DNA of 44,154 nt, taken from positions 1-44,154 of the IMG/VR virus record IMGVR_UViG_3300007735_000738, one strand, 5' to 3'. The notes beneath the pieces were generated by a model that saw only the letters and a list, made by a program, of their open reading frames with translations, was not told the DNA's origin and made no database searches. Made by a program: the position numbers and the translations under genes. Positions 11,895 to 29,127 of this stretch are shown in pieces (position 1 is the first letter of the stretch; every line of letters begins with the position of its first letter). Origin of the DNA: a virus.

Positions 11895-12251
11895 CTATTT
11901 CTTTTTTTTAGGTTGCTCATTGTATCCAATTAAATGCCACGCTGAATTGAACTCATGGTATTTCCTATTTAGATTTAACATCTTGGTTTGCAAGTACTTA
12001 ACAGGAATTATCCACCAAGTACTAAGGGAGATGGCGTATCCAGCGATTATGTCACAATCTTTAATAGTATAGGATTTTGCAACTCTATTGCCGTAGACAG
12101 CTTTGAGACGCAGCCGACCGAGTTTATCTGGACTCAAGGCTTTGATTTGAACCCGAGTTAATCCTTTGGGTGTGTCGACGATGACATCGTAGCGACAGTC
12201 TTCGCCGATCGGTAGGCTGACTTTCCACCCCCGCTTCATGCACTCGACCAT
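11895..12251 (-). CDS. PD-(D/E)XK nuclease-like protein with unclear start
   Basis: Residues around CRYDVIVDT and TRVQIKAL fit the D...QxK active-site pattern of small PD-(D/E)XK nucleases that normally begin with a helix holding a conserved Glu. That helix is present, but upstream of the ATG: in the same frame the DNA before 12251 encodes SSKDSGALYELSF, and the frame stays open to a TGA at 12342-12344 without any ATG, GTG or TTG. The true start may be a rare codon, or the gene may have lost its start. ATG 12251 has no ribosome binding site. The tail is Lys-rich. The stop is followed by the 29-residue gene. Confidence 0.68.
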   Translation of the reverse strand: MVECMKRGWKVSLPIGEDCRYDVIVDTPKGLTRVQIKALSPDKLGRLRLKAVYGNRVAKSYTIKDCDIIAGYAISLSTWWIIPVKYLQTKMLNLNRKYHEFNSAWHLIGYNEQPKKKK

Positions 12252-12341
12252 AAAAGAAAGCTCATAGAGTGCTCCGCTATCTTTCGAAGATATAGGTTTC
12301 TGTTTAATACAGATGCAGATATACCTTAAAATACTCGGATA

Positions 12342-12458
12342 TCAACTCCTTAACGAAACCCTTGGGTAGGCATCCGCTGGCCTGCCGCCATCGAACTCGC
12401 AGCCTTTGGACAGGACTACGAACGCGAAAACGACAGCCAGCGAACACACTACTATCAT
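12342..12458 (-). CDS. 38-residue putative membrane or exported micro-protein
   Basis: From ATG 12458 the ORF encodes a hydrophobic segment (MIVVCSLAVVFAFVVLSKGC) followed by a polar tail (EFDGGRPADAYPRVSLRS). A Cys follows the hydrophobic stretch but no standard lipobox precedes it. A weak GGA lies 9-12 bases upstream. The stop lies in the same frame as, and directly before, the start-less extension of the PD-(D/E)XK gene. The longer frame back to 12596 overlaps the HNH gene and is not preferred. Confidence 0.4.
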   Translation of the reverse strand: MIVVCSLAVVFAFVVLSKGCEFDGGRPADAYPRVSLRS

Positions 12459-23413: not shown

Positions 23414-23459
23414 GCGCATTGGTTCCCGAGAGCATGGGAATCAGTCCTTTTTTGTGTAG

Positions 23460-23495
23460 GTTACCTGTCGCGTTATCAGAGATAACCTAGGTAAC
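23460..23495. promoter_or_regulatory. Nested 7-bp plus 6-bp inverted repeat
   Basis: GTTACCT (23460-23466) pairs with AGGTAAC (23489-23495), and inside it GTTATC (23472-23477) pairs with GATAAC (23481-23486) with an AGA loop. A T-run precedes it on the plus strand, so no terminator in the leftward direction is implied. Operator or RNA hairpin. Confidence 0.45.
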
Positions 23496-24027
23496 TTTCG
23501 TCCCTTTTTAACTCGGTAGGGATGGAGACATCTTGCTCCGCTGCTAGCGTCCCCTAGTGCTGCGACACTAGGCACTTATGCGCCTTGGCTTCTGGCCTAC
23601 GCAAGCCCCATGACCCACGTTACCACCTTTACACCCGCTTCGGATTTGTCGCCCCGCCAAAGATTCGTGCAATCATAGTGGGCTTTGATTCACCCATGTC
23701 GCATTCACGATATCCCCAGCAAAGGAAGAAACGGATTGAAATGTCAAAGAAGAATCGGTGGGCAACCTGCCGAAGCAGGCCGTTCGGGTTTTCCGTGATC
23801 GCCGCATCATTGCCGAGTCACAACCACCGACATCCTCTAAACCGATTTTCAAGGGCTGGCCTTTCCTGCGCATAATGCACGCGAAGGCCGCGAGCGTGGC
23901 GCGAGCGCGGATTCGGGCGGCTCTGAAGCGCGAGCGCGTGCGCCCCCACCACGCGGGTGGGTAGCGGCCCCGCGTGAAGCGAACAACGTTTATATATAGA
24001 CCCTTTGAGAAAAAATTTTTTGATTTT
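23496..24027. other. GC-rich stretch without a supportable gene
   Basis: It contains a perfect hairpin CCTAGTG/CACTAGG with a 6-base loop (23553-23572) and then about 400 bases of composition unlike the flanks, with runs such as GCGCGAGCGCGG. Open frames exist on both strands (for instance 23758-23964 rightward from GTG and 23673-23873 leftward from ATG, 66 residues), but none has a ribosome binding site or a familiar motif. The last 40 bases hold AAAAAATTTTTT just before the promoter at 24028, a likely bent or UP-type element. Confidence 0.45.
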
Positions 24028-24055
24028 TTGACTTCGGTTCCAGACCCGCTACAAT
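24028..24055 (+). promoter_or_regulatory. Strong sigma70-type promoter, rightward
   Basis: A -35 box TTGACT (24028-24033), 16-base spacer and -10 box TACAAT (24050-24055) each match the consensus at 5 of 6 positions. An A/T tract (AAAAAATTTTTTGATTTTTT) directly upstream would serve as an UP element. The predicted start near 24062 precedes AGGAGGTGAT and ATG 24086. This is the clearest promoter in the window and points against its flanking genes. Confidence 0.72.
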
Positions 24056-24085
24056 CCCGGCCCGATAGAAAGGAGGTGATCTGAT

Positions 24086-24232
24086 ATGTGGTATACACTA
24101 CAGTCGGGTATCGTCTATGGACCCTACGGAGGGGTCGGATTCATACAGAGGGACGATCTGAAGCATGTCGCAGTCACATGCCTCGGACTGTTCCGCTGGA
24201 TCCGGAACCTTTGGTCCAAGGAACCCATGTAA
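24086..24232 (+). CDS. 48-residue orphan protein beside the origin
   Basis: ATG 24086 follows a near-perfect ribosome binding site (AAAGGAGGTGAT). The product is MWYTLQSGIVYGPYGGVGFI, then QRDDLKHVAVTCLGLFRWIR and a short tail NLWSKEPM. It is aromatic and slightly basic with no known motif. It has its own strong promoter (24028-24055) and a terminator-like hairpin after the stop (24244-24274), so it is an independent monocistron on the strand opposite its neighbours. A regulatory role in lysogeny or replication is an inference from position only. A GTG two bases downstream opens another frame that I consider less protein-like. Confidence 0.66.
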   Translation: MWYTLQSGIVYGPYGGVGFIQRDDLKHVAVTCLGLFRWIRNLWSKEPM

Positions 24233-24243
24233 ACACGTTTCAT

Positions 24244-24274
24244 GGGGTCAGGGGTACAACCAACCCCTGATCCC
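24244..24274 (+). terminator. Hairpin after the 48-residue gene
   Basis: GGGGTCAGGGGT (24244-24255) pairs with ACCCCTGATCCC (24263-24274) through 12 pairs with one G-T wobble and a 7-base loop, 11 bases after the stop codon. It is GC-rich and stable but followed by TTGAAAACG, without a proper U-tract. It should end the short transcript or protect its 3' end. Confidence 0.55.
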
Positions 24275-24327
24275 TTGAAAACGCCTCCTAGGGGCCAAGG
24301 AATCAAAAGTAGGCGGGTTGCGGGGGA

Positions 24328-24371
24328 GTATCGTTAAGCGATACATACACTACACTAGGCCAGTGTAGTGT
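24328..24371. repeat. Two adjacent perfect palindromes at the left of the origin region
   Basis: GTATCG (24328-24333) and CGATAC (24339-24344) flank TTAAG. Two bases later ACACTACACT (24347-24356) and AGTGTAGTGT (24362-24371) form a perfect 10-bp inverted repeat around AGGCC. They lie in DNA without genes between the 48-residue gene and the iteron array. Confidence 0.65.
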
Positions 24372-24453
24372 CGCACCAAGAGTACACCTGTCACAAATAG
24401 TGCCGTGTATTCGTTATTCGAGAATGGCGAACGCATACTGATTCGTGAATAGT

Positions 24454-24519
24454 TAAAGTCTGGCTTGAACTATTTGCAATTCAGTACTCAATTCAGCGTT
24501 AATCAAACCCCAGACTTTA
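24454..24519. repeat. 10-bp inverted repeat with a 46-base spacer
   Basis: TAAAGTCTGG (24454-24463) and CCAGACTTTA (24510-24519) are exact reverse complements. The spacer is AT-rich and contains the short direct repeat CAATTCAG (around 24476 and 24489). It borders the iteron array on its left and could be a protein-binding or structural part of the origin. Confidence 0.55.
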
Positions 24520-24563
24520 CATTTGCCCATGGAATCAAGGATCCAAGGGTTCATTATCACATT

Positions 24564-24962
24564 GGGTAGGGGAGGAAAAAGTCACCCCTACCCACCTACA
24601 GAGAAAGGGTAGGGGTGAAAACTCCGAAAAATTCCACCCCTACCCAAGTTAAGTGCTTGATTTTCAACATACTTACAAGGCGTGGGTAGGGGATGTAGGG
24701 CTTTTTTAAATTGATTGAAGAAAAAGTATATATATATGTATCGCCGGAATCCCCTCGGGCCGAAAAACCGCCGCAAAACCCCACGGTTTTGAAAAAAAGC
24801 CCTACATCCCCTACCCAATCGGGGTTAACCCCTTGGGCTACAGAGACTTACGCAAAAAGTTTCACCCCTACCCTCACCCCTACCCACCCCTACCCATTTC
24901 CCATAAACCCTTGATCCTAGGATACTTACAACAATGATTTCACCCCTACCCATCTCCTACCC
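24564..24962. repeat. Iteron array CCCCTACCC, probable replication origin
   Basis: The 9-mer CCCCTACCC or its complement GGGTAGGGG occurs ten times exactly: plus-strand C-form at 24585, 24637, 24808, 24865, 24877, 24887 and 24943, and G-form at 24564, 24607 and 24684. One imperfect copy is at 24954. Most C-form copies extend to CACCCCTACCC. The three at 24865-24895 are 12 and 10 bases apart, about one helical turn. The array surrounds an inverted repeat and a TA tract, and lies 2 kb from the primase-helicase gene. This is the standard layout of an initiator-bound origin, though the initiator itself is not identified. Confidence 0.78.
24683..24817. repeat. Perfect 25-bp inverted repeat around a TA-rich tract
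   Basis: The arms at 24683-24707 and 24793-24817 are exact reverse complements over 25 bases; each holds an iteron core (24684-24692, 24808-24816), ATGTAGGGC or its complement, and six T or A. The 85-base spacer contains TATATATATATG (24727-24738) and a 7-bp hairpin CAAAACC/GGTTTTG (24774-24791). A 12-bp perfect palindrome GGGGTTAACCCC follows at 24821-24832 and a 10-bp one, ATCCTAGGAT, at 24914-24923. I read the spacer as the DNA unwinding element. Confidence 0.8.
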
Positions 24963-25068
24963 TTCGGGCCTCTCGGCTCCGGGATTTTGGGTACAAATAA
25001 TACTAATAACTCACTCTCAATTTTGAAGGCCGCAAATAGCCTTCCGTATAACAAGTTATTTAAGAAGT

Positions 25069-25121
25069 GACGGGGCTGGGCTTACCACATCAGGCCCAAA
25101 CGCTGGTCCGGGCACCCCGTC
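25069..25121. terminator. Branched hairpin at the end of the leftward small-gene cluster
   Basis: GACGGGG (25069-25075) pairs with CCCCGTC (25115-25121), closing a 39-base interior that can form a TGGGC/GCCCA hairpin. A second small hairpin GAAGGC/GCCTTC lies at 25025-25044. On the leftward strand this follows the stop of the gene at 25131, so it could end that transcript before the origin. There is no U-tract. Confidence 0.4.
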
Positions 25122-25130
25122 GAAGTTTAC

Positions 25131-26973: not shown

Positions 26974-29127
26974 TTATTTTTTCTTGATAAAGGTTTCTTC
27001 GACTGCAATTACATACCAAGTTTTACCATGGTGGGATACATGACGCAAGACCCTACTTGATGGACGGTTTGAGAGCATGCGCAGTTCGCGGCCAAGTCTG
27101 ACGGGTGTGTACCGCGACAGCAACGGCTTGAGCATGCCCTCGTCGATCCCCATGACGCTGGAGAACAGGTCGGTTGCGGTGCCCTTCCACTCCTTCTTGG
27201 CCTTATCGTCCCGGCGCATGCTGCTGGCCCACCGATCTAGGATCTCCTCAAGCTTGGTAGCTGCGGAGTCCTCGTTCGCTGATTCGATCATCCTTGGGTG
27301 GTGGTAGGGACGAACCCCGAACCTTGGATTCTCTGACCACAGGACGTGGGCTTGCGGTGAATAATCGAGCAACCACCGCAAGAAGTGCGGCAATTCCCGC
27401 TTGATGATCTCCTCGTTCTCTTTGTTGGAGGAAAACTTGTGCTGGTACGGTTGGAACTGAAACAACATTATCTTATCGAGGATGTTGTTGTCCAAGGTCG
27501 GCAGCACCGACAACGAGTGCGCGTCAGTGTTCAGAGTCAGACACATGCATCCAGTCCACGGCAACTCTGTAGCATCCTTGAACTTCGGATGGTAGATCAC
27601 CGTGGGGTTGGCCACGTGCGACTTCAGTGACTCCGAGAACTGGCGGTGCTTGTCGGGGTCGATCGCTGACTGCGGATCGTCCACCACCCAGTGCGGGTGT
27701 TCGGCCACCGTCTTGTTGAAGCTGGTCTTACCCTGCAGATATGGTGCTGCGTCAGCCCATCCGCCGAGGCTGTCACCCATTATCTTGCGGTTAAACAGTG
27801 TTTTACCCTGTCCCGCGTCACCAGCGATAACGATCAACTGGCTTTGGACTGGCTCAAATTCTAGGGCAGCTTTGTACTTCCGCTTCCAGTAGGCCAGCCA
27901 ATACGGGAGTTGCTCATCCCCGAAACACGTCCAGATCCATTCGCGAATCCACTTCCAGTTTGCCTCGTCGCCGTTTTCTGCGGGAGCGATGGCCGTCCGG
28001 TAGTTGATATTGAGGATCCTTGTGTTGCCGATGTCAACGATCTCGCGCTTGTCGAACAGGATAGGCGCGGCTGCGTCCACCCTCCGCTGGGTTTCGATCG
28101 CGTGAAGTACTCGATCCATCTGGGACGCGCCCTTCTTGGATTCGGTCTTGATCCCATGAACCCTGAGACTTCGGGCCACGTTCTCCACTTTCGCATCGTA
28201 CCAGCGATTGTGTCCGTTTTTAAACCAGTAGGCCTTGCCATCGTAAAAGTACTCCATGACGGCTTTGCCGATAACCTCTTGCCTGTACTGGTCTACGAAC
28301 TGTTTCCCAAGTAGGTCTCCCCACGTGAGGAACGACTTTCCTGCGCGATCCGTGTAGCAGATGATCCCAGCTTCGGCCACCTGACATCCGATGCGGGTAA
28401 TGCCGTCATTGAGCCAGAATGTCGGGCCACGGGCACCCACCACAAAGTCCCCCGGCCACGCTCCGGGCCAACGTGCCTCGACTTCGGCGGCGATCTTTTC
28501 GATCGGGATCTCAAGGTCGCTTCCCGCGACTTTATTCCAGTCCACCTTGCTGCTGGCCTTGACGATGAGATCCCCCATCACGTTGTCCGACACGCTGGGG
28601 TTGCCCTGTACGACAACCCATCCGTGGCCGAGTTCGAACAGCTGATTCAGTCGGAACGAGCACTCGTCGATCCCCGGAAGGACGCTGCCGAGTTTAAACT
28701 TCTTGGCTATCTCCTTCATCAGGTGCTTCGCCATGTCCGGACAGTCCACGAGCACCGGAGTGTCGAACTGCCAGACCACACGGGCGTTGCCGCTGAACGT
28801 GCGGCTGATCGCCGCTGGCATCGCGTCCACATCGCAACGCGAGAGGATATCCTGCATATTGAAGTTAGCCCCCAGCTTGGCATCGTAGTCGACAACCATG
28901 CCGTGCAGCCACTTCGCGGGGTTATCCAGCGAGATGCGTTTGTGCGGATTGACGCCTTCTGCTGCCGTGTAGAAGCAGTGGTCGGTTGCCTTATCGCGTA
29001 CCCACTTCTCGTAGTCATCCTTTGTGGCGACATTCGCGGGGTACCCCGATGACGTGGCGTTCCAGATGTCTATCGGCGTCTCCGTGACATCCGATACCGT
29101 GAGATTTTTTGCGTAGAATGTTTTCAT
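26974..29127 (-). CDS. Primase-helicase (D5/P4-type)
   Basis: The 717-residue protein has an N-terminal primase-like region with GMVVDYDAKL (about residues 75-84, a DxD-type catalytic pair) and a C-terminal SF3-like helicase with Walker A AGDAGQGKT (about 437-445), a Walker B-like WVVDDPQ, and an Asn sensor in CLTLNTDAHS. This is the layout of D5/P4-type phage replication proteins that unwind and prime at the origin. The iteron origin lies 2 kb downstream. The gene overlaps the upstream 74-residue gene as ATGA and ends at the pseudoknot terminator. Confidence 0.9.
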   Translation of the reverse strand: MKTFYAKNLTVSDVTETPIDIWNATSSGYPANVATKDDYEKWVRDKATDHCFYTAAEGVNPHKRISLDNPAKWLHGMVVDYDAKLGANFNMQDILSRCDVDAMPAAISRTFSGNARVVWQFDTPVLVDCPDMAKHLMKEIAKKFKLGSVLPGIDECSFRLNQLFELGHGWVVVQGNPSVSDNVMGDLIVKASSKVDWNKVAGSDLEIPIEKIAAEVEARWPGAWPGDFVVGARGPTFWLNDGITRIGCQVAEAGIICYTDRAGKSFLTWGDLLGKQFVDQYRQEVIGKAVMEYFYDGKAYWFKNGHNRWYDAKVENVARSLRVHGIKTESKKGASQMDRVLHAIETQRRVDAAAPILFDKREIVDIGNTRILNINYRTAIAPAENGDEANWKWIREWIWTCFGDEQLPYWLAYWKRKYKAALEFEPVQSQLIVIAGDAGQGKTLFNRKIMGDSLGGWADAAPYLQGKTSFNKTVAEHPHWVVDDPQSAIDPDKHRQFSESLKSHVANPTVIYHPKFKDATELPWTGCMCLTLNTDAHSLSVLPTLDNNILDKIMLFQFQPYQHKFSSNKENEEIIKRELPHFLRWLLDYSPQAHVLWSENPRFGVRPYHHPRMIESANEDSAATKLEEILDRWASSMRRDDKAKKEWKGTATDLFSSVMGIDEGMLKPLLSRYTPVRLGRELRMLSNRPSSRVLRHVSHHGKTWYVIAVEETFIKKK

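Follow-up and report, generated by a model that had tools for sequence, protein, structure and literature searches.

A conserved iteron array around a perfect inverted repeat, a putative replication origin in an uncultured phage lineage

The iteron block and its inverted repeat

The window, that is, the whole 44,154 bp stretch analysed here, is a virus record of IMG/VR and probably part of a phage genome of about 70 kb. Between two gene groups, both on the minus strand, lies a gene-poor stretch of 1.7 kb (positions 23420-25130), and it encloses a noncoding block of 390 bp (24563-24952) with ten GGGTAGGGG/CCCCTACCC iterons and an inverted repeat. A coding reading of the region is ruled out because the indels between relatives are not multiples of three. 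The motif CCCCTACCCW occurs 11 times in the window versus 0.08 expected, and ten of these instances are inside the block.

Four outer iterons on the left (24563-24646) alternate in orientation, at 24564 (minus), 24585 (plus), 24607 (minus) and 24637 (plus), with spacings of 21, 22 and 30 bp in all close relatives. Each arm of the inverted repeat carries one iteron. Three plus-strand iterons follow in tandem at 24865, 24877 and 24887 (24860-24896), the minus strand of which fits the canonical G-quadruplex pattern. The right-most copy is at 24943-24951 on the plus strand. Clustered iterons in both orientations flank an AT-rich stretch.

The arms of the inverted repeat, 24683-24707 and 24793-24817, are 25 bp long, 100% complementary and separated by 85 nt, exactly as the preliminary description had it. 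On the plus strand the left arm, TGGGTAGGGGATGTAGGGCTTTTTT, contains the iteron GGGTAGGGG (24684-24692), a degenerate second copy, TGTAGGGC, and a run of six T. The right arm on the minus strand, AAAAAAGCCCTACATCCCCTACCCA, is its perfect reverse complement, with the iteron CCCCTACCC at 24808-24816 and six A at the inner end. One iteron and a poly-T/A end in each arm had already been noted; the degenerate second iteron copy which ends each arm had been missed, as had the extension of the dyad into the flanks in some relatives (imperfect arms of 46 nt in G003). Of the two halves of the spacer (24708-24792), one is AT-rich and contains TATATATATATG (24727-24738). The other is GC-rich and carries a 7-bp hairpin, CAAAACC/GGTTTTG (24774-24791). 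Both features agree with the TA tract and small hairpin described before. The AT-rich half is probably the unwinding element. Perfect inverted repeats reached at most 14 bp in 60 sequences of the window's length drawn from a first-order Markov model, and the observed repeat is therefore far beyond chance.

Some further elements were noticed in the neighbourhood. About 550 bp to the left of the block (23990-24050) there is a conserved element, TATATA..ACCC(T)CTGAGAAAAAATTTTTT, which is present in one copy per sequence in the window, L003, L005, L006, L020, G003 and G004. A possible gene of 48 amino acids (MWYTLQSGIVYGPYGGVGFIQRDD..., 24085-24231) has a strong ribosome-binding site, and a similar reading frame adjoins the block in L005 (about 12243-12385). 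A second small inverted repeat, AATAGTT...AACTATT (24448-24475), is conserved in clade 1. The sequence CTACAGAG is found in the loop between inverted iterons at 24596 and 24838 and also in L005, L009, L020 and L021.

Conservation of the locus

Close relatives were recovered from metagenomes with the gene of a 717-aa helicase (see below) and the arm sequence, which gave an alignment of five distinct sequences (the window, L004 = L006, L001 = L009, L003, and G003 = L016/L019). All ten iterons are invariant in the five sequences and have the same order and orientation, with spacing differences of no more than 2 bp, and G003 has one extra copy. The arms are invariant at 49 of 50 bases (left arm 24/25, right arm 25/25) and the tandem iterons at 35 of 37. 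Only 38 of the 85 spacer positions are invariant, yet the spacer length is held at 85-87. At four-fold degenerate positions in the genes for helicase and polymerase, the identity of the window is 75% with L006 and just 43-47% with L003, L009 and L019. As the arms and iterons are nearly invariant despite this divergence, the alignment argues that they are under strong purifying selection, which bears out what had been assumed for the arms. A spacer core of the AATTATAATAWAAGG type recurs in L009, G003, L005, L020 and L077 and nowhere else among the sequences searched.

In more distant relatives the layout is kept and the sequence has changed. Three of them (L005, L020 and L021; helicase 61-62% identical) have, in the corresponding region, facing iterons of the GGGGTGGGG type at a distance of about 93-100 bp. 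The inner ends are T-rich, and a core resembling AATTATAATAAAAGG and a hairpin rich in GC are present as well. In L066, L068 and L105 (helicase 28% identical) the facing iterons are AGGGTGGGGG and the arms share AACTCGTT. The facing layout sits downstream of the same helicase gene in L005, L020, L021, L066 and L105, with differing G-run iterons. L077 (helicase 38%) has the same core, AATTATAATATAAGG, between AGTGGGG repeats of both orientations; from this resemblance the locus may be an origin as well. The L022-L033 group (helicase 35-38% identical) has no such iteron cluster, which counts against the interpretation proposed below.

Concerning the genomes themselves, G001, G011 and G012 have terminal direct repeats of 121-123 bp, which suggest complete circular maps but are maybe assembly overlaps. 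In L005/L008/L020/L021 and in L024/L025 inserts interrupt the helicase-exonuclease gene (at about residue 525, length about 0.3-1.0 kb) and the polymerase gene (at about 407, length about 0.8 kb). These splits are possibly due to an intron, an intein or a homing gene.

The candidate initiator

The gene of a D5/SF3-type helicase (26974-29127, minus strand) is located upstream of the block, which in the window is about 2 kb past the stop codon. The product of 717 aa matches DUF5906, has a Walker A motif and is weakly similar to a PHROG family named DNA primase. Its predicted structure is of moderate confidence (pLDDT 68) and resembles SF3-type helicases, namely the C-terminal region of NrS-1 (Z 15.2), the SaPI5 primase-helicase (7om0, Z 12.3), PriRep1 with dsDNA, AsfvPrimPol, D5 and papilloma E1; among SaPI helicases the fold was matched by 7om0, 7ola and 7pds. 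For the C-terminal 113 residues a winged-helix topology is predicted. Many of the structural matches listed for this tail are winged helices, although the matches are weak (best Z 6.7, Foldseek E at least 0.33).

Among clades 1-3, all with G-run iterons that face each other, the tail can be aligned; the L022-L033 group, in which the iteron cluster is missing, has a different tail. This correlation is imperfect since in L077 a divergent tail goes together with G-run repeats, and common ancestry is a further confounder. We infer that the helicase is the initiator of the locus; another protein could serve.

A search of the PDB by sequence gave no credible match, and no relative of the helicase was found among 50,697 phage records or in genome contigs. 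Neither was there a DNA match to the phage records. The arm sequence gave 9 single hits in genome contigs versus about 7.5 expected by chance (estimated for an 18-mer in 257 Gb, both strands). As this is near the chance level, no host is assigned.

GC skew at the locus

In the window, G001, G003 and G004 the cumulative GC skew peaks at a distance of 0.8-1.4 kb from the block, and the minimum is about 34 kb away in G001 and G003 and about 22 kb in G004. Clade 3 has its global maximum 17 kb from the locus. The third-position GC skew of the majority-strand genes, however, falls across the locus in seven of seven genomes, clade 3 included, which suggests that the replication strand switches here.

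Bacterial origins are conventionally placed at minima of the cumulative GC skew and termini at maxima. The locus is near a maximum, the reverse of the rule for bacterial origins, and a replication terminus therefore stays a live rival, in which forks converge and are halted by the G-run iterons. BPP-1 and N15 were used as skew controls and did not settle the question of the sign. A skew minimum about 34 kb opposite in two genomes and the presence of G-quadruplex motifs are also compatible with a fork trap. Yet the left-side iterons are in both orientations, and the AT-rich element and the adjacency to a helicase gene are origin-like; we know of no ter system with this layout. We regard a terminus as unlikely.

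Proposed mode of initiation

Instead we consider it fairly probable that the block 24563-24952 is the phage origin, at which an SF3 helicase on the facing half-sites of the arms melts the spacer and the repeat is kept perfect for binding and not for pairing. The preliminary description had also placed the repeat at an origin, and this is still the best inference from the conserved iterons, the adjacent helicase gene and the position in the GC skew.

The initiation could proceed as follows. The helicase, which is encoded upstream in the same transcriptional direction, would bind the G-run iterons via its C-terminal winged helix. The 25-bp arms would offer two identical half-sites in opposite orientation, each comprising an iteron, a degenerate iteron and a T-tract. 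Two helicase hexamers would assemble face to face on the arms and open the 85-bp spacer in its AT-rich half, and the outer iterons would aid recruitment. That the arms might hold two initiator oligomers face to face was one of two earlier proposals, and the conserved facing half-sites together with the structural model of the SF3 helicase make it the more likely one. The arms would then match perfectly since one and the same protein binds the two half-sites.

The other proposal was a cruciform. The 25-bp arms would extrude and the loops would expose the AT-rich tract, comparable to what has been suggested for the stem-loop origin of pRN1, which requires an intact stem of 21 bp with a 58-nt loop downstream of the primase-helicase gene (PMC4234260). 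Indeed, four of the five clade-1 sequences have perfect arms of 25-26 bp, and the single strand folds far better than shuffled sequences (z about -7). But the only substitution in the arms, a G to T change in L003 (TAGGGC to TAGGTC), disrupts a base pair without compensation. The suggested covariation check of both arms thus gave no compensatory change in the five sequences, which hold almost no arm variation to test. Relatives which keep the layout of the putative origin and have lost the perfect pairing do exist (L005, L020, L021, L066 and L105), and they speak against a role of pairing. In the first three the facing iterons are retained and the arms pair only via repetitive G/C runs, in clade 3 (L066, L068, L105) the AT tract is outside the dyad, and in L077 no long inverted repeat was found at the locus. 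By a rough estimate melting of the 85-bp spacer costs about 114 kcal/mol, of which the loop hairpins regain about 19, whereas supercoiling provides 47-98 kcal/mol at sigma -0.03 to -0.06. As the cost outweighs or barely meets this energy, extrusion is unfavourable or at best marginal. It is also not what was conserved, and the perfect match needs no pairing because two identical inverted binding sites explain it. The cruciform was thus not borne out and we hold it to be improbable.

A role of the region in regulation or packaging only, as an operator array, promoter, terminator or cos/pac site without origin function, is unlikely too. The noncoding stretch of about 1.7 kb and a TATAAT-like sequence in the AT core of several relatives could be adduced for it, but Sigma-70 promoter and terminator matches in the region are not clearly above shuffles, an Rfam scan of it gave no family and the skew switch would be left unexplained. 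All sequences examined from clades 1-2 have G-quadruplex motifs at the block, and the iterons stay rich in G-runs through sequence turnover. That one strand forms G-quadruplexes for origin opening or helicase loading is nevertheless very unlikely, and no literature joining phage, origin, iteron and G-quadruplex was found.

The facing half-sites for the phage SF3 initiator on both sides of a melting region are therefore the most likely reading of the inverted repeat. If true, an origin and a candidate initiator would be at hand for an uncultured phage lineage which has no relative by helicase gene among the phage records. The iteron sequence shifts from GGGTAGGGG to GGGGTGGGG and AGGGTGGGGG under a constant layout, and such a comparative series would be useful for studying the co-evolution of SF3 initiators with their sites and the face-to-face loading of two helicases.

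Comparison with known replication origins

Phage P4 has repeats in both orientations and the region crr. As for the P4 ori/crr repeats, which are bound by the alpha protein, a primase-helicase with a winged helix (PMC4234260), the iterons here would be bound by a helicase with a predicted winged helix, but the binding is putative and no second distant iteron cluster was found.

The pRN1/BPP-1 stem-loop origin is likewise an element of about 100 bp with a long stem and a long loop downstream of a primase-helicase-winged-helix gene (PMC4234260). However, pRN1 is without iterons and keeps the stem while the sequence changes. Here ten iterons are present, close relatives keep the sequence, and perfect arms are absent from clades 2-4.

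SV40 ori and HSV oriS also have initiator sites of opposite orientation, and those of oriS enclose an AT-rich tract (PMC9894130, PMC12543377). These are eukaryotic viruses with other initiators (HSV OBP is SF2), and their spacers are much shorter than here.

In SaPIs, Rep uses its C-terminal domain to bind iterons situated directly downstream of its own gene (PMC7581432), and oppositely oriented repeats recruit two head-to-head hexamers (PMC9894130). The SaPI origins with Rep or PriRep (SaPIbov1, SaPI5), as summarized there, share with our locus the iterons in opposite orientation and the position downstream of a helicase gene; the SaPI helicases are self-loading and have a C-terminal DNA-binding domain, for which the winged helix predicted here would be the counterpart. 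They differ in that the locus described here belongs to phages of about 70 kb with their own family-A polymerase, G-run iterons and perfect 25-bp arms; the sequences are unrelated and the helicase binding here is putative. By analogy the locus is best read as an origin with an SF3 initiator, akin to those of SaPIs, P4 and SV40.
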